Shown here in pieces: positions 13,375-22,457 of a DNA stretch of 64,000 nucleotides. The stretch spans positions 408,532 to 472,531 of the forward strand of contig NZ_QOCH01000003.1 in assembly GCF_003318275.1 (NCBI RefSeq), in the 5' to 3' direction. Source of the DNA: Marinobacter sp. F3R11. GTDB lineage: Bacteria; Pseudomonadota; Gammaproteobacteria; Pseudomonadales; Oleiphilaceae. The position numbers and the translations under genes were made by a program. The notes beneath the pieces are model-generated. The model worked only from the letters and a program-made list of their open reading frames with translations, was not told where the DNA came from and did no database searches. Positions within the stretch are counted from its first letter, which is position 1. Each line of letters begins with the position of its first letter.

Positions 13375-14772
13375 ATGAACTTCAGCTCAGCAACCCCGGA
13401 AACCCTCCCCGCCAGCGATACCATCGCGGCCATAGCCACGGCCCCTGGCCAGGCCGGAGTGGGCATCGTCCGGGTATCCGGTCCGCAGGCAAAAGCTATT
13501 GCTGCTGCGATGCTGGGGTATACACCCAAACCCAGATATGCCCATTACGGGCCCTTTCTCGATCAGAAAAATGAACTTATCGATGAAGGAATCGGACTCT
13601 TCTTCCCAAATCCCCATTCGTTTACAGGTGAGGATGTTTTCGAGTTGCAGGGCCACGGTGGCACCGTAATTCTGGATTTGCTGCTACGGGAAGTCTGCCA
13701 GCTTGGTGCACGGCTGGCGCGCCCGGGAGAATTCTCTGAGCGGGCATTTCTCAACGACAAGCTGGATCTGGCTCAGGCGGAAGCTATCGCTGACCTGATT
13801 GAAAGCAGCTCGGAACAAGCAGCTCGCTGTGCCGTGCGTTCCATGCAAGGTGTGTTTTCACGGCGTATAGAAACGTTGGTGGAATCAGTAACACATCTGC
13901 GAATTTATGTGGAAGCCGCCATCGATTTCCCGGAAGAGGAAATCGACTTTCTTGCGGATGGTAAGGTTGCCACAGATCTGCAAGCCTTGCTGGAACAGCT
14001 TGAGGGCATAATGGGTGAGGCCCAGCAGGGCACAATCTTGCGGGATGGAATGAAAGTGGTCATTGCCGGTCGTCCCAATGCCGGAAAATCCAGCCTTCTG
14101 AATGCGCTGGCTGGCCGGGAAGCCGCAATAGTAACCGCTATTGAAGGTACAACCCGGGACGTTTTACGTGAACATATCCACATTGACGGTATGCCCCTGC
14201 ATATCATTGACACTGCAGGCTTACGAGACAGCCCGGATGAAGTGGAGCAGATCGGCATTGCACGGGCCTGGGAAGAAATCCGCCAGGCCGACCGGATACT
14301 GCTGATGGTGGATGCCACCACCACTGATAAAACCACACCCCATGAAATCTGGCCTGATTTTATTGATCAGCTGCCGGATTCAGCGCCTCTTACAGTGGTT
14401 CGTAACAAGGTAGATCTGAGCGGAGAAACGGTTGGTATTTCAGAGTCATCCACAGAGCAGGCCCCCGTCATAAGACTTGCTGCCAAATCTACCGAGGGGC
14501 TCGAAGTGCTACGCGATCACCTCAAACAATGCATGGGCTTTGCCAGCACCACCGAAGGCGGTTTCCTGGCTCGGCGCAGACATCTGGACGCACTGGAGCG
14601 TGCCCGGGATTCCCTGCTGCAGGGCCAGGCACAACTTGAAGGTTATGGAGCCGGTGAGCTGCTGGCTGAGGACCTTCGGGCCGCTCAGGATGCCCTGGGA
14701 GAGATCACAGGGCAGATTACTCCAGATGAATTGCTGGGCAAAATTTTCGGTTCGTTCTGTATCGGGAAGTGA
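13375..14772 (+). CDS. mnmE: tRNA modification GTPase MnmE
   Basis: Potassium-dependent GTPase that, with MnmG, installs the 5-(carboxymethyl)aminomethyl group on wobble uridine 34 of certain tRNAs. The 465-residue protein has the N-terminal formyl-THF-binding domain ([22 protein letters not shown]), a helical domain, and the inserted G domain with [21 protein letters not shown] and NKVD. It ends with the invariant FCIGK. Its usual partner mnmG is the next gene in Pseudomonas-type genomes but lies 16 kb away here. Confidence 0.97.
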
Positions 14773-14830
14773 TGATCCGACAATAAGTGCTGTCAAATAT
14801 AACCGGAGTGGTTGTCAGACAACGAGCAGA

Positions 14831-15931
14831 TCAGCCCTGTTTTCGACTCACCTCTTGCATCAGTTTGTCGATACATCTGACTACACCCATGCTGTATGCT
14901 TCCATTTGCTCAAGATATTTCAGCATACCCTTGTGATCGCCCTCTTCTCCACAGGTCAGGGCGGCTCTGCCTGACTCATGCACTCCGCGGTGTGGATCCT
15001 CCAGTGCCTTGAAATTGATCAGATCAGCGTATTTACGGCTACCGTAACCTTCATAGTACCAGCGGCCCAACCGACATTCGGTATGACTATTGACACCCGC
15101 AGCAAACTCACCGCGTTCAATCAGACTGTATACCTGGTTTTTCCACACGGTATGATCCAGCTTGACTGTATTGAGGAAAGAGTTCGTTGTAGCAATGCGG
15201 ATAACAGTCTGCATATGATCCGAACGATCAATGACTTCACCCACAACGGCATCAATCTGTGTAGACGAAGCAGCAACATCTGAAGCGACTTTCAGATTCT
15301 GATCAATAGCAGAAAGGATAGAGTTAGTCTGACCAATAACCTGTGCCACAAGGCTTTCGATTTCCTGGCTTGCCCCATGGGCTTTGGCTGCCAGGGCACG
15401 GACCTCATCTGCAACCACTGCAAAACCACGGCCAGCCTCACCGGCACGTGCAGCCTCAATGGCAGCGTTCAGAGCAAGCAGATTGGTCTGGTCTGATATT
15501 TCCTGAATACTGCTCACGAGCCTGGAAATAGCGTTTGCGGTCGTATCCAGTACAGTGGCCGCCTGCAGACTGGTATTGGCCTGTTCGTTGATAAGATTGG
15601 CACGATGGCCCAGCTTCTGCAGAGCTTCACGGGTGTGGTCAAATGCAGAATCCAGCTGCTTCAGAGCCTTGCGTTCATTAGTAAGTTCTTCTGCCATAGT
15701 CGCCAGCCCGTCACGGATACTCAACAGCATATCTCCGCCCTTCAACTGCCAGGACATGGCTTCTGCCTTGTAGTTCCCCTGCTGTTGCGCCTGTTGCAAC
15801 TGCTGCTCTTTTTCTTCAAGTAAGCTGTGCAACCTTTCTTTCTCGGCCTTATGTTCAGCCTCCATGGTTTGCAGCCTGGCCCTGAGCTCAGCTTCTATTT
15901 TTTTCTGTTGTTTATGACCTAATCCAAACAT
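14831..15931 (-). CDS. Soluble methyl-accepting chemotaxis protein with CZB domain
   Basis: Cytoplasmic chemoreceptor-type signalling protein of 366 residues. An N-terminal coiled coil (about 10-65, rich in Glu, Gln and Lys) is followed by the MCP signalling hairpin, whose tip reads [22 protein letters not shown] and [15 protein letters not shown]. The C-terminal chemoreceptor zinc-binding (CZB) domain has its ligand pattern [28 protein letters not shown]. No transmembrane segment is seen, so it should sense cytoplasmic signals; CZB domains are known for zinc and oxidant sensing through the Zn-Cys site. Start ATG 15931 has GAGGT upstream; the open frame continues to 15991. No che genes are nearby. 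Confidence 0.88.
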
Positions 15932-16106
15932 TAATACCTCGAAAAACTGCCTTAAAAATATGCCAGTCGCCTGTGGCAGTAAAAGCTCCACCTGAGTGCA
16001 TCCATAATGACTCTGATTATTTGAAAGTCCGGCTGTGCTGACCGCTGGAATTTAAAAGCTTGTCTGTTTGATCAACAGTTTTCTTTTGTCCATAGGACTG
16101 GCGTAA

Positions 16107-16210
16107 TCAGGGGATTATACTGCGCACGACGACAGGTGGGGAGTAAAACGCAGCTTGCTTACAGGCAACACGCTTTGAACTTCCTGCCGCTGCCACAGGG
16201 GCAGGGTTCA
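16107..16210 (+). repeat. 104-bp direct repeat, copy 1
   Basis: Aligns without gaps to 18815-18918, with a 48-bp identical run at its right end. Its left part still encodes GIILRTTTGGE and a stop, the exact C-terminus of the lipoprotein gene downstream. Its right part is the 3' end of a ychJ-type gene in reverse. It therefore looks like the junction of a lost neighbouring copy. Confidence 0.85.
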
Positions 16211-16224
16211 ATGTAATCAGGCAT
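16159..16224 (-). pseudogene. Fossil 3' end of ychJ (SEC-C motif remnant)
   Basis: A 21-codon frame from ATG 16224 reads MPDYIEPCPCGSGRKFKACC plus Leu. From EPCPCG onward it equals the C-terminus of the intact YchJ encoded at 18867-19325. There is no ribosome-binding site, and the rest of ychJ is absent, so it is read as a remnant. Translation as a free zinc-binding mini-peptide is possible but unsupported. Confidence 0.6.
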
Positions 16225-16310
16225 TTGAGGACTCAGCAAGCGGTATTACCATCAAGCCCGTGCTGAAAGTGAGTTAATGACTTATAACATGACATCTGTT
16301 TTGACAGTTT

Positions 16311-16340
16311 CTGATCCTGTGCCTATATATTCTGGATAAA
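16311..16340 (+). promoter_or_regulatory. Possible sigma70 promoter of the YCF48 lipoprotein gene
   Basis: A consensus -35 (TTGACA 16311-16316), an 18-base spacer and a weak -10 (GATAAA 16335-16340), 64 bases before the start codon. Confidence 0.4.
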
Positions 16341-16403
16341 CGGATCCGCTGGCTATTATCAGGCTGACCGGAAAAGGAACTTCAATCAGGGAGTGGGTCA
16401 GTT

Positions 16404-18854
16404 ATGGGTATGCACAACAGCCAGAGAGTCTTCTTCAGCAGTAAGGGTGGCGTTTTTCCCGGTGCATTTTTGTGGTTAATGCTGTTTTTTATCCCATTTT
16501 TGGTGGCCTGTGGGGGGGACAATGATAACGACAGCACTTCCGCTGCGTTGACGATCACTTCTCAGCCAGCTAACCAATCGGTGGTGGTTGGCTCTTCTGC
16601 CCGGTTTTCGGTAGCGGCAACAGGTTCCGGAACCCTGAGTTACCAATGGCAGCGAGACGGCAGTGATATTGCCGGCGCACAAGGGAGTAGCTACACCTTG
16701 GCAGCTGCGGCATTAACAGACGCGGGCGCCAGCTTCACTGTGCGGGTGTCTGACGACAGCACCTCTGTGGTCAGCGCAGCAGCCATTCTTACCGTTACCT
16801 CTGGGCCCGAAGCACCAGTCATTACTAGCCAGCCTATGGCGCAATTGGTCGAGCAAGGTCAGCAGGCCAGCTTTTCAGTGGTCGCTACAGGCACCCCCCC
16901 ATTAAGTTACCAGTGGCGGCGAGACAATGTTGATATCGCGGGGGCCGACTCTGCCAGTTACACCACGCCTGTGCTAACGCAGTCTGCGGATGACGGTACT
17001 CTTTACAGTGTGGTCGTGAGCAACTCGGTGGCCAGCGTAACCAGCAGCGATGCCGAAGTTACCGTGACACAAACGCTTTTGGCCTGCTCGGGAGGTGCAC
17101 AAGCAGGCTGGTGCTGGATTGAGCCCAAACCCCATGGCAATACCATGCACGATGTGCAGTATCTCGGTGCTGACGTGTTTGTGGCGGCTGGCGAGGGTGG
17201 TGTGTTCATGCGCTCCACCGATGGTGGTGCCACCTGGACTACCAGCTTTACCATTGGTAGCAGTGTTAACGCCATGCACTTTGTCAGCAGCACCCTGGGC
17301 TTTGCGGTGGGCGACCAGGGTTTTATCGCTCGCACCAATGATGGTGGGGAAACCTGGGTGCCGCAGACAAGCACCGTAGAAACCACACTGAACGACGTAT
17401 ATTTCTTTGATGCCAACCTGGGTCTCGCCGTTGGCGACAGCAGTACCATTCTTCACAGCATTGATGGTGGCACCACCTGGACACCGGTCACCGTACCCGG
17501 ATTCGGCCATGCCTATGGGGTAAGTTTTGCGGATGCCAATGTCGCCATGGTGGTAGGTTCAGGCGGTGCCCGGCTACGTTCCGTCGATGGCGGCGCCAAC
17601 TGGAACCGGGTTGACACACCAGCCGGATGCCAGACCTGTACCCTGAGAAGTGTCACCTTCACCAGCGCCACCACCGGCTTCGCAGTTGGCGACCAATCTA
17701 ACTCAATCATGCGCACTGACGATGCCGGCCAAACCTGGGCAAAGGTACCGGGTGGCAATGCTTCCGGGGCGAACGATGGCAGTTGCGGATTCGAGGATAT
17801 AAGCTTTTTGGGCAATCATGGCTTGGCTGTGGCTACGTGTGGCTGGATTGCACATTCCTCTGACGGCGGGGTGAGCTGGACCAAGTTTCCAGCGGTTGGC
17901 ATACATCTGGAGACCGATACTTTTGGTGCGGCGTTCGGCGCAGGTTCTGCTGTGGCGGTGGTTGTGGGAGGTGAAGGCCAGCTCTATCGCACCACCAACG
18001 CTGGTGCCAGCTGGACCAGTATCTTCCCTGAAAGAGTTGCCCAGGACTTTTTTAACGTGTATTTCGATGATGCCAGTACGGCTTATATTCTGGGCACCAA
18101 AAGCTACAAATCGACTGATAGCGGACTGACCTGGGCCGAAGACTTATCACTGCCCAGCGGGGCGAACGCAATGGCATCAACCAATGCGGGGCTGATTACC
18201 GCGGGAAACAATCGCAGCATTTATCGGTCCATCGATGGAGGCCTTACCTGGGATTACATTGCCGCTATCCCGGTCGGTTCTGGTAACTTCTACAGGCTTT
18301 ACTTTTATAACCCACTGGTGGGATACGCCTATGGCAGCACCGCTGGCACCATCAAGACCACGGATGGCGGTCTCACCTGGACCACGGTGTTTGGTGGACT
18401 GAGTGCTGTTACTGGAATTCATTTTTATACAGAAGATATTGGAGTGTACGTCGGCGAAGGGCGCATTTATCGTACTGTGAATGGGGGGGTAAACTGGAAC
18501 GAGGTCCAGCGGTCCCAATGGGGGCTGGTCGGGGCTGCATTTACGGGCAATGGTGGCGTTGCGGTTGGCGGAAACGGCGCCTACTATACCTCCGATCAGG
18601 GTGCTACGTGGATCCAGGTTACCGGTGTCAGCACCGAAAACTTCAGAGGGGTGGAAAGCAACCCTGCCAGCTCTTTGTTTATCGCCTACACCGATTCAGG
18701 AAACATGCTGAAAAGTGTGGATGGAAGCAGTTGGAGCAAACTTGCATCGCCGGTGGGTGGCCAGATCAACGCCCTCCGCTACTATGACGATTCGCTGGGT
18801 CTCGCGGTTGGTGGTCAAGGGATTATCCTGCGCACGACGACGGGCGGAGAGTAA
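16404..18854 (+). CDS. Large lipoprotein with Ig-like domains and YCF48/BNR Asp-box repeats
   Basis: 816-residue exported protein of unknown function. The N-terminus has a hydrophobic segment ending in a lipobox (FLVAC, Cys36), so it is probably a lipoprotein. Two Ig-like domains of the S-Q-P-A...V...G..A.FSV type lie at about 46-130 and 135-217. From about 230 to the end there are some 13 Asp-box units of the form (S/T)xDGGxTW, among them STDGGATW, TNDGGETW, SIDGGTTW, SVDGGANW, TTDGGLTW and TVNGGVNW. They alternate with GLAVGD-type strands and are the hallmark of YCF48/sortilin-like beta-propellers. A substrate-binding or glycan-binding surface role is inference. The gene sits between two 104-bp direct repeats and shares its 3' end with a fossil copy upstream. 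Confidence 0.8.
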   Translation: MGMHNSQRVFFSSKGGVFPGAFLWLMLFFIPFLVACGGDNDNDSTSAALTITSQPANQSVVVGSSARFSVAATGSGTLSYQWQRDGSDIAGAQGSSYTLAAAALTDAGASFTVRVSDDSTSVVSAAAILTVTSGPEAPVITSQPMAQLVEQGQQASFSVVATGTPPLSYQWRRDNVDIAGADSASYTTPVLTQSADDGTLYSVVVSNSVASVTSSDAEVTVTQTLLACSGGAQAGWCWIEPKPHGNTMHDVQYLGADVFVAAGEGGVFMRSTDGGATWTTSFTIGSSVNAMHFVSSTLGFAVGDQGFIARTNDGGETWVPQTSTVETTLNDVYFFDANLGLAVGDSSTILHSIDGGTTWTPVTVPGFGHAYGVSFADANVAMVVGSGGARLRSVDGGANWNRVDTPAGCQTCTLRSVTFTSATTGFAVGDQSNSIMRTDDAGQTWAKVPGGNASGANDGSCGFEDISFLGNHGLAVATCGWIAHSSDGGVSWTKFPAVGIHLETDTFGAAFGAGSAVAVVVGGEGQLYRTTNAGASWTSIFPERVAQDFFNVYFDDASTAYILGTKSYKSTDSGLTWAEDLSLPSGANAMASTNAGLITAGNNRSIYRSIDGGLTWDYIAAIPVGSGNFYRLYFYNPLVGYAYGSTAGTIKTTDGGLTWTTVFGGLSAVTGIHFYTEDIGVYVGEGRIYRTVNGGVNWNEVQRSQWGLVGAAFTGNGGVAVGGNGAYYTSDQGATWIQVTGVSTENFRGVESNPASSLFIAYTDSGNMLKSVDGSSWSKLASPVGGQINALRYYDDSLGLAVGGQGIILRTTTGGE

Positions 18855-18918
18855 TAGACCGCCTCCTTAGAGGCAACACGCTTTGAACTTCCTGCCGCTG
18901 CCACAGGGGCAGGGTTCA
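18815..18918 (+). repeat. 104-bp direct repeat, copy 2
   Basis: Spans the last codons of the YCF48 lipoprotein gene and the last codons of convergent ychJ. It is the functional counterpart of 16107-16210; the two copies are 2708 bp apart. Confidence 0.85.
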
Positions 18919-19325
18919 TTGCGTCCTGGCTTCAGAACGCCTTCGTGGGGCTCGCCTTTCAAGTAATACCAGCGACCGTTTTCCCGCACAAATTGTGACT
19001 GCTCCTGCAGGTAACCCCAGCCCGGATTGAGCCGGTAGATGGCCTGAAAGTGTACGTGGCCATTGTCTCCATTGTGGCCGCTTTCGAGAATACGCAGCGA
19101 TGCCCAGTCCGGAGAGTTGTCCAGATCAAGTATCTCTGGCCTTGTGCTGGGGTGCCAGCTGGCGCGCAGGTAATCTTCAAGCTTCAGCACAAATGCAGTG
19201 AAACGTGAGCGCATCAAAGCTTCGGGGGTAGGTGCGGCTGCACCCTGGTGATAGTGCTGGCAGCAATTTGTGTAGAGGCTCTGGCTGCCACATGGACAGT
19301 ATGGGATAGTCTTTGTTTCTGGCAT
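18867..19325 (-). CDS. ychJ: YchJ family protein (UPF0225, SEC-C motifs)
   Basis: 152-residue protein with an N-terminal cysteine cluster (YCPCGS...YTNCC) and a C-terminal SEC-C zinc-binding motif (EPCPCGSGRKFKACC), around a central NTF2-like YchJ domain (MRSRFTAFVLKLEDYLRASW). The cellular role is not established. It is convergent with the YCF48 lipoprotein gene, stops 12 bases apart, and divergent from the DUF2959 gene. Its 3' end is part of the 104-bp repeat and is duplicated at 16159-16224. Confidence 0.88.
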   Translation of the reverse strand: MPETKTIPYCPCGSQSLYTNCCQHYHQGAAAPTPEALMRSRFTAFVLKLEDYLRASWHPSTRPEILDLDNSPDWASLRILESGHNGDNGHVHFQAIYRLNPGWGYLQEQSQFVRENGRWYYLKGEPHEGVLKPGRNEPCPCGSGRKFKACCL

Positions 19326-19403
19326 TGATCTGGGGTATTTGCGTCAGAATTGAAGCCCGCAGTATAACAACCGTATTCAGACACAAAAGGATTGATTCAA
19401 ACC

Positions 19404-20075
19404 ATGTTCACAAAGCCCAGTACAGTTTCTGTTACCAGCCGGCTAGCTGGCCTGTTTTGCCTGTTGCTGGTATTCAGTGGTTGCAGTTCCATGTACTACA
19501 GCACTATGGAAAAGTTCGGAGTCGAGAAGCGCGATATCCTGGTAGACAGGGTAGGTGAAGCCCGTGATGCGCAGAGCGATGCCCGGGAAACATTTCGCTC
19601 TTCTCTGGAAAGGTTTCAGAGTGTAGTGGAAACGCCGGAGACCGGGCTTCAGGAAAAATACGACGTTATTACCAAGGCTTACGACAACAGTCTGAAATCT
19701 GCAAATAAGGTCCGGGATCGTATCAAGAGCGTTGAAGGAGTATCCGAGGCGTTGTTTGATGAGTGGGAAGATGAACTGGATCTCTATGAAAGCGCATCAC
19801 TCAGGAAAACCAGTGAGCGCAGGCTTGATGAAACCCGTGAGCTTTACAATAGCCTGATTACACGCATGCACCGGGTTGAAAAACGTATGGATCCTGTTCT
19901 CGAGGCATTTGAAGACCAGGTACTGTTCCTCAAGCACAATCTCAACGCTCAGGCGATCGGAGCACTGCAGGATGAACTGGGGCAGATCAGCCAGGATGTG
20001 GATAGCCTTATTCGAGATATGGAAGCGTCTATTGAGGAATCTGAAGCATTTATCCAACGATTCCGTGAAGGATAA
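19404..20075 (+). CDS. DUF2959 family lipoprotein
   Basis: 223-residue probable lipoprotein: a hydrophobic segment (LAGLFCLLLVF) ends in a lipobox-like FSGC, followed by the family text SSMYYSTMEKFGVEKRDILVDRV. The remainder is almost wholly helical with coiled-coil character and is rich in charged residues (EARDAQSDARETF, KSANKVRDRIKSVEGV, LDETRELYNSLITRM). Function unknown. ATG 19404 is chosen; a TTG at 19392 adds four residues but sits too close to AAAGG. It is divergent from ychJ. Confidence 0.8.
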   Translation: MFTKPSTVSVTSRLAGLFCLLLVFSGCSSMYYSTMEKFGVEKRDILVDRVGEARDAQSDARETFRSSLERFQSVVETPETGLQEKYDVITKAYDNSLKSANKVRDRIKSVEGVSEALFDEWEDELDLYESASLRKTSERRLDETRELYNSLITRMHRVEKRMDPVLEAFEDQVLFLKHNLNAQAIGALQDELGQISQDVDSLIRDMEASIEESEAFIQRFREG

Positions 20076-20194
20076 GCTGGTGAAATATGAATGCTGTTTG
20101 CTTCTATGATGTTGATTAAGATTAGTATTGCTATTTGTAAATAATAAGTAATATCATTCGCACCTTTATGATGTTTGTCAAAAGGAAGGATGAT

Positions 20195-22303
20195 ATGTTG
20201 CTTTACCGGATTGCGATCGGGGCTGCGTGCAGCGCCCTTGTTTTTAACTCGTCTGCACAGGCCCAGCAAACGGAGCTGGGAGAGCTGGTTGTAACCGCTT
20301 CGGGTTTTGAACAGAGCCAGACTGCCGCGCCTGCAAGTATCACTGTTATCTCCGGTGAAGAAATTCGCAGCAAACAAGCATTCAGCCTTACGGATATTCT
20401 GGATGATGTAGAGGGTATTGATGTCAGTGGTTCTGCCGGGAAAACTGGTGGATTTGATATCCGGATGCGCGGAATGCCGTCCGAGTACACGCTTATTCTG
20501 ATCGATGGCCGCCGTCAGAACACTGCCGGTAGTGTTACCCCGAATGGTTTTGGTCAGACTGCCACCAGCTTTTTTCCACCACCTTCAGCCATCGAACGCA
20601 TAGAAGTTGTGCGAGGCCCCATGTCGACTCTTTATGGTTCTGACGCCATGGGCGGTGTTATCAACATCATTACCCGAAAAGTAAGTCCGGAATGGGCATC
20701 TACGCTCACCGCAGAAACCACTCTTAATCAGGACAGTGATTTTGGTGACAGCCGGGCCTACAGCGCCTATACCAACGGTCCGCTTGTGGATGACCTTATT
20801 GGCTTTCAGCTGCGCGGTCGCTGGTTTGAACGGGATGAGTCCACGCTGGAATACCTCGATCTGAATGGTGATCCGGTAGAAGTCAGCACCCGCGGGCCCA
20901 GCCCGGTAGAGTCGGACCAGTATACGGTTGGTGGCCGCATTACCGTAACGCCAGGTGAGTCAAATGACTTCTGGCTGGATATTGAAAGCAGCAGGCAGGA
21001 CTACGATAACTCGGAAGGTCAGTTGGGCACCCTTGGTGTACAAGGTTACGGTCCTGAGCTGGAATTTGATCGTGACCAGTTTGCAGTGGGCCACACCGGC
21101 CGGTTTGCTATAGGTACGCTGGAAACCAGCATCATGAGAAACGTCACAGAAACCAGTGGTCGTATTATTCCTGAAGGTGTCCCTGGAAAAGTAGCGGGTT
21201 CTGCCCGGGAACTGAAGGCGGAAAACCGGGTGATCGACAGCAAGCTGGTTATGCCTGTCGACAACCATGTGGTGACAGTGGGTGGTCAGTGGTTTGATGC
21301 GCGTATGACCGATGGCGTTGCCGTTGAAGAGTTCAAGCAAAAAACCCAGGCACTGTTTGTTGAGGATGAATGGTTCCTGGCCGATGATCTCGCTCTGACC
21401 CTGGGTGGCCGATACGACCGTCACGATGCATTTGGTGGGCAGTTCAGCCCGCGGGCCTATCTTGTCTGGAGTTCCACACCTGAGCTGACCATCAAAGGTG
21501 GCGTTAGCCGCGGTTATAAAACACCGGGACTTGAGCAACTTGCGCCAGGTATTGTCGGTTTTAGCGGGCAGGGAACAATCCCCTTGTTTGGTAACCCGGA
21601 TCTGAAACCGGAGAAATCAACTTCAACTGAACTGGCTGTGGTGTACGAAAAGCCGGCTGGTTTCAGCGTGGGTGCAACGGTGTTTTACAACAAGTTCACC
21701 GACAAAATTGCTGAAGGGCCTGATCTGCTGAATTGCAGCTACGCGGCAGATCCCAATCGCCCGGGTTGTGTGGATAAAGGCGACTGGCCATTGACGGATG
21801 CATTTGGCCAGGATCTGAACATTGATGAGGCTATCACTCAGGGTGTGGAGTTAAGTGGTTCAGTGCCCATTGCCCGGGACTGGCGTCTGGCTGCGAACTA
21901 CACCTACACCGACAGTGAACAGAAATCCGGAGAGAATAAGGGCGAGCCTCTCACTGATACACCGGAACATATGGCTAATGTTTCTCTGCGCTGGAAACCT
22001 TCCGCACGCTGGTCGGCATTTATGAAAGCCCAGTATGAAAGTGAGCGTTACCGCGCTCGGGAGCGCAGCCGTGGTGCTCCTTCGTATGCCGATCTCGGGG
22101 ATTTTAAAGCGGTCACTCTTGTGCATCTTGGCGGCCAGTTCCAGGCTTCCGAAAACCTTGGTTTCAGTGCGACCATTTATAATCTTCTGGACGAAGACTT
22201 TATTGAATACCGTGCTTATGACAATGGTGCCAGCTACGGGAACCTCTACGCTAACAGCGAAGAAGGGCGGCGTTTGTGGCTGGCTGCAACCTACTCGTTT
22301 TAA
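20195..22303 (+). CDS. TonB-dependent outer-membrane receptor
   Basis: 702-residue receptor that would import a large ligand, most often an Fe-siderophore, using TonB energy. Signal peptide about 1-24 (MLLYRIAIGAACSALVFNSS, cleavage after AQA). The plug domain begins ELVVTASGFEQSQ and contains LTDILDDVEGIDV, RMRGMPSEYTLILIDG, IERIEVVRGPMSTLYGSDAMGGVINIITRK. The 22-stranded barrel includes GVSRGYKTPGLEQL and FGNPDLKPEKS and ends in aromatic ATYSF. It resembles the CirA/FepA group, but the ligand cannot be told. ATG 20195 follows AAGGAAGG; upstream ATGs at 20168 and 20171 lack a ribosome-binding site. The next gene, a periplasmic peroxidase, is 154 bases away. Confidence 0.9.
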   Translation: MLLYRIAIGAACSALVFNSSAQAQQTELGELVVTASGFEQSQTAAPASITVISGEEIRSKQAFSLTDILDDVEGIDVSGSAGKTGGFDIRMRGMPSEYTLILIDGRRQNTAGSVTPNGFGQTATSFFPPPSAIERIEVVRGPMSTLYGSDAMGGVINIITRKVSPEWASTLTAETTLNQDSDFGDSRAYSAYTNGPLVDDLIGFQLRGRWFERDESTLEYLDLNGDPVEVSTRGPSPVESDQYTVGGRITVTPGESNDFWLDIESSRQDYDNSEGQLGTLGVQGYGPELEFDRDQFAVGHTGRFAIGTLETSIMRNVTETSGRIIPEGVPGKVAGSARELKAENRVIDSKLVMPVDNHVVTVGGQWFDARMTDGVAVEEFKQKTQALFVEDEWFLADDLALTLGGRYDRHDAFGGQFSPRAYLVWSSTPELTIKGGVSRGYKTPGLEQLAPGIVGFSGQGTIPLFGNPDLKPEKSTSTELAVVYEKPAGFSVGATVFYNKFTDKIAEGPDLLNCSYAADPNRPGCVDKGDWPLTDAFGQDLNIDEAITQGVELSGSVPIARDWRLAANYTYTDSEQKSGENKGEPLTDTPEHMANVSLRWKPSARWSAFMKAQYESERYRARERSRGAPSYADLGDFKAVTLVHLGGQFQASENLGFSATIYNLLDEDFIEYRAYDNGASYGNLYANSEEGRRLWLAATYSF

Positions 22304-22372: not shown

Positions 22373-22457
22373 TCCCTGTTCATTTACAAACATGAACATT
22401 CTGTTAGGTTTATTCCAGAAGTTCTGTAGATAACAGAAGTGAATGGGGAGAGTACAA

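Follow-up and report, generated by a model that had tools for sequence, protein, structure and literature searches.

What is to be made of a gene end that occurs twice in a bacterial chromosome, once in its proper place and once upstream, fused to the ends of other genes? This question is raised by 64,000 nucleotides of Marinobacter sp. F3R11 (contig NZ_QOCH01000003.1, positions 408,532 to 472,531; this whole stretch is hereafter the window, and all positions refer to it), where the slot between mnmE and ychJ holds a gene for a putative YCF48/BNR lipoprotein that is bracketed by a direct repeat. The repeat and the fossil ychJ tail within its upstream copy are real, and the analysis presented here suggests, with a probability of roughly 58%, that 16095-16277 is recombination debris from a gene replacement in this slot, in which one lipoprotein-ychJ allele was overwritten from another lineage. 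The scar is most likely clear but ordinary, and the repeat bears no sign of a function for the organism.

A repeat scan of 14000-21000 (minimum 20 nt, seed 12) detected one direct-repeat family, pairing 16107-16213 (copy 1) with 18815-18921 (copy 2), that is, 107 nt with 88% identity at a spacing of 2708, with 13 mismatches, no gaps and a longest identical run of 48 bp (16163-16210). A search of the organism's own genome at E ≤ 0.001 returned these two places and no third one. The 104-bp repeat described in an initial annotation is the same block minus its last three columns, and reading both strands confirmed its view that copy 1 joins the lipoprotein end to the antisense ychJ end, the same junction that copy 2 forms in the intact genes. 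The lipoprotein tail of copy 1, for which 11 residues had been given, does exist, with its count revised: it reads NQGIILRTTTGGE* on the plus strand, comprises 12 codons common to both copies and is preceded by a weak extension at 16095-16103 (G-L-A), the frame of which is broken because 5 bases have been lost relative to copy 2.

Directly after copy 1 lies a third tail that had previously gone unnoticed, belonging to a zinc alcohol dehydrogenase gene. It matches the dehydrogenase in loci L080 and L091 by tblastn (E 1e-8) and has DNA matches in four relatives (G093, G022, G008 and G053), and the G093 protein carries the Pfam domains ADH_N and ADH_zinc_N. This dehydrogenase directly faces ychJ in G093 and G022, and in G134 the lipoprotein gene takes that position. 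The window thus unites, over some 180 bp, the last codons of ychJ with those of two genes that face ychJ in one genome or another. Where the ychJ and dehydrogenase tails meet (16210-16214), the exact breakpoint and any microhomology are not fixable without the donor sequence.

Gene ends at unusual places were also noted in other genomes. G042, a genome without a full ychJ match, has an isolated ychJ tail (L099:3169-3240; 83% over 23 residues, within an open frame of 58 aa) facing a Xan_ur_permease gene, which is possibly another ychJ tail fossil. In G053, shortened dehydrogenase open reading frames (ORFs) follow mnmE (L098:8702-9830, oriented), and a stretch resembling ychJ residues 69-100 (53%) lies beside a zinc dehydrogenase tail. 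In G061 the end of ychJ reads KAC and then continues with other residues (L083:12529-12993, oriented), with the loss of one of the last two SEC-C cysteines, and adjoins a slot gene.

It is extremely improbable that the repeat reflects chance similarity, or a conserved functional element such as a terminator or a SEC-C microprotein, and not a scar. Similarity by chance is at odds with 107 bp at 88% across two gene ends (self-comparison E 4e-29), and the possibility, considered earlier, that only the SEC-C codons are alike is ruled out together with it by a block that crosses both genes and covers the lipoprotein tail and the spacer as well. With respect to a functional element, a hairpin of 5 bp with a CUUA loop is predicted in the spacer of both copies (16153-16166 and 18861-18874), the copies differing there in both bases of one pair (G-C to C-G) and in one base of another, and there is a 21-aa ATG frame with a SEC-C match. 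Folding of the copies gave z-scores of -1.6 to -4.8, with the stem mostly in SEC-C codons. Nevertheless, a scan found no promoter- or terminator-like site at either copy and Rfam gave no match at gathering scores in 14700-19500, so that an RNA element is ruled out, a single doubly changed spacer pair being too little. The 21-aa frame (16159-16224, minus strand, MPDYIEPCPCGSGRKFKACCL, matched by the Pfam SEC-C model) is a product of the fusion of two tails that starts inside the dehydrogenase tail, and it is treated as probably accidental.

How the two copies came to differ bears directly on whether duplication or replacement produced them. The 12 lipoprotein codons common to both copies differ by five changes, every one of them synonymous (synonymous sites make up 10.3 of the 36; chance about 0.002), and one further codon just upstream differs in its amino acid (N versus G). 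The spacer has changed at 6 of its 12 bases, as opposed to one silent change in the 48 bp (16 codons) of the ychJ tail, a difference that is significant when the stop is included (1/51; Fisher 8.7e-5). The pattern of change follows coding constraint, and therefore most of the divergence arose at a time when each junction was still part of functional genes. Had copy 1 been in decay ever since a tandem duplication, it would have been expected to collect differences regardless of codon position or gene, which is not what was found, and the coding-type divergence argues against such an origin. Of the tandem-duplication story first proposed for this locus, the existence of two lipoprotein-ychJ junctions is thus retained, whereas duplication within the genome followed by decay of copy 1 is not, since the differences follow coding constraint. 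The two junctions likewise make a second lipoprotein allele, the body of which is gone, likely. As judged from the sequences, the divergence fits either two lineages or two long-lived working copies, and two lineages that later recombined are the simplest explanation, since none of the relatives was found to carry two such units. In this respect, about 100 bp of silent versus spacer changes can tell a scar of replacement between lineages from a decayed tandem duplicate.

The initial idea of a tandem duplication within the genome can also be framed with a shifted unit, running from the dehydrogenase tail to the ychJ tail; two lipoprotein genes would then have flanked the join of ychJ tail and dehydrogenase tail, and the first copy would later have been deleted except for its end. 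Two steps would suffice to arrange lipoprotein tail, ychJ tail, dehydrogenase tail, lipoprotein and ychJ as they are seen, the direct orientation and the single junction fit it, and a recent event would agree with the 45 bp of the ychJ tail that are identical between the copies. However, the ychJ fragment would then have been unconstrained from the start, and yet only 1 of its 51 bp has changed, compared with 6 of the 12 bases of the adjacent spacer (Fisher 9e-5), none of the five changes in the shared lipoprotein codons alters an amino acid, and the lipoprotein is single-copy in each of the two genomes that have it among 163 of the family (E ≤ 1e-30); gene conversion would be needed to rescue this account, which we regard as doubtful. 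The coding-type divergence of both tails would also be explained by tandem complete lipoprotein-ychJ units that both worked for a long time in one genome and were then collapsed by deletion. This is unlikely, given that none of the 124 genus and 163 family genomes was found to carry two lipoprotein copies, a pattern that the initial annotation had proposed to look for, that a second ychJ in G123 (63%) sits elsewhere on the chromosome and not in tandem, and that the conflict in ychJ and the DUF2959 gene described below would need a separate event. The further proposal of an expandable unit, excised or amplified through the repeats, is possible in principle with 48 identical bp, although no sign of it is seen here.

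The genes on both sides of the slot appear to carry different phylogenetic signals. In the mnmE tree the sister of the window is G093 (support 100/99.9, and 100/100 for yidC and mnmE combined), and this flank shows no phylogenetic conflict. Silent divergence to G093 amounts to 0.30-0.32 in yidC, dnaA and mnmE, 0.47 in ychJ, 0.65 in the DUF2959 gene, 0.43 in the TonB gene and 0.44 in cytc; the value for ychJ alone is not unusual, because recF, dnaN and a neighbour labelled ABC1 show 0.43-0.51. In quartets of the window, G093, G119 and G061, where the first figure counts sites uniting the window with G093, yidC gives 69:16:20 and mnmE 62:14:17, whereas the sister signal is gone from ychJ (9:10:12) and the DUF2959 gene (11:22:16), the site patterns of which conflict with those of mnmE (mnmE versus both genes together, Fisher p 5.9e-8). 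In 150-bp segments, identity to G093 is 69-88% over 18851-20650, the segment at 69% being largely intergenic, and 83-93% from 20651 on, except for 75% at 22451; at this resolution, the right end of the discordant tract falls somewhere in about 20.2-20.65 kb. From these patterns the region reads as an imported tract that would include ychJ and the DUF2959 gene, the receiving lineage being that of the window or that of G093.

The tails and the flanks together suggest a tentative reconstruction, in which a single end was illegitimate and in which both the direction of the exchange and the succession of steps are inferred. Two orthologous versions of the lipoprotein gene with its converging ychJ would have met in this lineage, and one would have been joined into the other by homologous recombination on the ychJ-DUF2959-TonB side and by an illegitimate join on the slot side. 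Of the losing version, only the junction of lipoprotein tail and ychJ tail would have been kept, joined to the dehydrogenase tail that precedes today's lipoprotein gene, and the body of the older lipoprotein would have been lost later, on the CZB side. Such an event would resemble homology-facilitated illegitimate recombination, in which the illegitimate end often involves a few bases of microhomology.

Several observations weigh against this replacement. No donor or intermediate was found among the relatives compared, and a fragment of the genome's own ychJ is absent from all 14 relatives' intervals tested at E ≤ 0.01, so that this sample does not show such scars to be general; in three relatives the interval gave short matches of low significance (E 0.006-0.009) to that genome's mnmE or downstream DNA, which were taken as chance. 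The approximately unbiased (AU) test against grouping the window with G093 is borderline for ychJ and the DUF2959 gene together (p 0.049) and does not reject this grouping for either alone (0.067 for the DUF2959 gene, 0.26 for ychJ), and beyond the tract cytc recovers the pair with a support of only 67/67. In the segments starting at 19151, 19301, 19901 and 20501, G093 and G119 are 87-88% alike, above the likeness of either to the window, which is compatible with foreign DNA in this part of the window as well as with exchange between G093 and G119; going by these identities, the recombinant lineage could be G093 instead of the window. Moreover, identity over the 45 bp of the ychJ tail is true of only 1 in 406 species pairs (29 of 435 having been dropped owing to row L037, which is gapped in the tail): the 6 pairs whose silent divergence over the remainder of ychJ is 0.4-0.5 have 3-7 tail differences, and the 34 pairs at 0.5-0.6 have 1-11. 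The ychJ tails therefore look younger than the lipoprotein tails, and they may have been homogenised by gene conversion or have been the site of the crossover. The ychJ 3' end is 92% identical to G022/G128 versus 87% to G093 over 60 bp, which was judged too weak to use.

The replacement proposed here is set in a region that varies widely among relatives. The survey covered the 17 genomes that match ychJ best and three more (in 12 further ychJ loci, L051-L062, mnmE was looked for within 1.5 kb only). In 16 of the 17, the sequence retrieved around ychJ includes mnmE, which lies 3' of ychJ. The interval between both genes is 11-44 bp in four of them (G092, G111, G077 and G123) and ranges from 253 bp to 4.5 kb, with differing cargo, in 12; in G101, other genes occupy at least 12.4 kb beside ychJ, with mnmE not within a further 19.6 kb. 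The cargo includes gene family F14, which we take to encode an aldehyde dehydrogenase and which is sometimes accompanied by the zinc dehydrogenase, an ArsP-like permease (G061), a PMT-like protein (G041), a LysR regulator with LigB (G082) and JetABCD of the Wadjet defence system (G101). Related genomes thus hold different cargo between the same conserved flanks, as is the case for a hotspot: mnmE-ychJ is a variable gene-exchange slot in Marinobacter, and several of its cargo genes are convergent with ychJ. It is worth mining for strain-specific genes, with Wadjet beside ychJ in one species as an example. There, the JetA-JetB-JetC-JetD genes (JetA1-D1 models; L086:606-7375) adjoin ychJ, and a 1252-aa protein after them had no PADLOC match. 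Literature searches found no paper connecting ychJ, mnmE and a hotspot and, judged by title, no Marinobacter paper on natural transformation or competence. Homologues of ComEC and DprA are present in the genome and were also matched in 10/14 and 11/14 control genomes, respectively. It is also conceivable, and no more than a tentative suggestion, that the conserved 3' tail of ychJ acts as a recurrent crossover anchor of an integrase-free cassette slot, in which case the stacked tails would record former occupants in the order of their replacement.

The identity of the left flank raises a different explanation, because islands related to Salmonella genomic island 1 (SGI1) have been described to insert at the 3' end of trmE/mnmE, with Marinobacter members reported (PMC9035990). 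The tails would then be remnants of islands that came and went at an integrase-driven site. The last 18 bp of mnmE do resemble an SGI1-type attachment (att) site (match at 14755, 2 mismatches), G101 has an exact 18-mer match at the ychJ end of the gene-filled slot that holds its Wadjet genes, and G082 has two att-like sequences (1 and 2 mismatches) 2.9 kb apart. By contrast with the islands described in that source, which share the flank gene mnmE with this locus, the window does not have 18-bp att repeats at both ends or an integrase among the slot ORFs: at up to 4 mismatches the 64 kb hold only mnmE's own att-like sequence and no second one, and Pfam found no integrase domain in the two long non-overlapping slot ORFs (the CZB and lipoprotein genes), the remainder of the genome not having been searched. 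The repeat lies at ychJ and not at mnmE, and a site-specific insertion at mnmE makes no ychJ or lipoprotein tails. An island origin of the tails is consequently very unlikely, and insertion of an island might account for the CZB gene, not for the repeat. In G082, the two att-like mnmE 3'-end sequences bracket the LigB and LysR genes and two smaller ORFs (L090:7760-10690, oriented), a stretch that is possibly a small island or a remnant of one.

Replacement between conserved flanks has precedents. Recombination in the core genes on either side is known to drive hotspots that lack mobile elements (2017, PMC5635113), and the mnmE-ychJ slot resembles the hotspots described in that study in its variable cargo between conserved neighbours, in a possible recombination signal on the ychJ side and in having no recognised mobile element among the slot genes of the window. 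It differs in that species of one genus are compared here, as opposed to genomes within clades of 80 species, and in a mnmE flank without conflict and a one-sided debris junction. Vibrio clusters of the type VI secretion system (T6SS) offer another parallel, since their sequential displacement leaves orphan 3' genes, for which homology-facilitated illegitimate recombination has been proposed (Kirchberger et al. 2017, PMC5361080), a term also used elsewhere for events with homology at one end (PMC3240628). In these clusters, too, a newcomer displaces an older gene while part of the old locus stays, one end is homologous and the other illegitimate, as is proposed for the window, and the authors preferred transfer over duplication on phylogenetic grounds, as is done here (PMC5361080). 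On the other hand, whole immunity genes that may be useful are kept in Vibrio, whereas the window retains only tails without a sign of use (PMC5361080).

Table 1. Positions of the gene tails, the repeat junction and the intact genes in and around the mnmE-ychJ slot of the window.
Feature	Position	Strand	Basis
Fossil tail of a second YCF48 lipoprotein allele (GLA, 5-bp loss, NQGIILRTTTGGE, stop TAA 16144-16146)	16095..16146	+	Alignment with copy 2
Stop-to-stop spacer	16147..16158		6/12 bases differ from copy 2
Fossil ychJ tail (EPCPCGSGRKFKACCL and stop; last 16 codons)	16159..16209	-	Sequence comparison
Junction of ychJ tail and dehydrogenase tail	16210..16214		Compared with dehydrogenase 3' ends of four relatives
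Fossil zinc alcohol dehydrogenase tail (NQAFEDSASGITIKPVLKVS and stop)	16215..16277	+	tblastn, DNA matches, Pfam
Copy 2, where the intact lipoprotein and ychJ genes meet	18815..18921		Repeat scan and alignment
mnmE (trmE), left core flank of the slot	13375..14772	+	tblastn orthologues, synteny
CZB-domain methyl-accepting protein, slot cargo	14831..15991	-	Pfam MCPsignal and CZB
Intact YCF48/BNR putative lipoprotein gene (816 aa, Ig-like domains)	16404..18854	+	Pfam PSII_BNR, Ig_3, I-set
ychJ, right core flank of the slot	18867..19325	-	Pfam YchJ_M-like and SEC-C
DUF2959 gene, inside the segment with site patterns discordant to mnmE	19392..20075	+	Pfam, quartet sites

The intact genes of the slot (Table 1) follow the order CZB gene, debris, lipoprotein. 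Among 124 genus genomes, the chemoreceptor-like CZB gene occurs only in the window at E ≤ 1e-60; the best match of its protein (69% identity) comes from another family of the order, and the DNA upstream of five CZB homologues from other families provided no useful match with which to place the boundary of the insert. The YCF48/BNR product is predicted to be a lipoprotein from its N-terminus. Its gene is present in 2 of the 124 genus genomes at E ≤ 1e-20, and a pattern-based scan of 84,980 species gave 33 loci, one of them close (73%) and the others at ≤35%. The closest relative is in Marinobacter sp. DY40_1A1 (73% identical over its length), and G134 holds a lipoprotein gene of 73% identity in the same slot, its upstream DNA resembling that of the window from roughly 16350 onwards and showing a weak match of 29 bp at 16300. 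In G123, where the slot ychJ is 78% identical, the more distant second ychJ lies at G123:C1:4046379-4046810.

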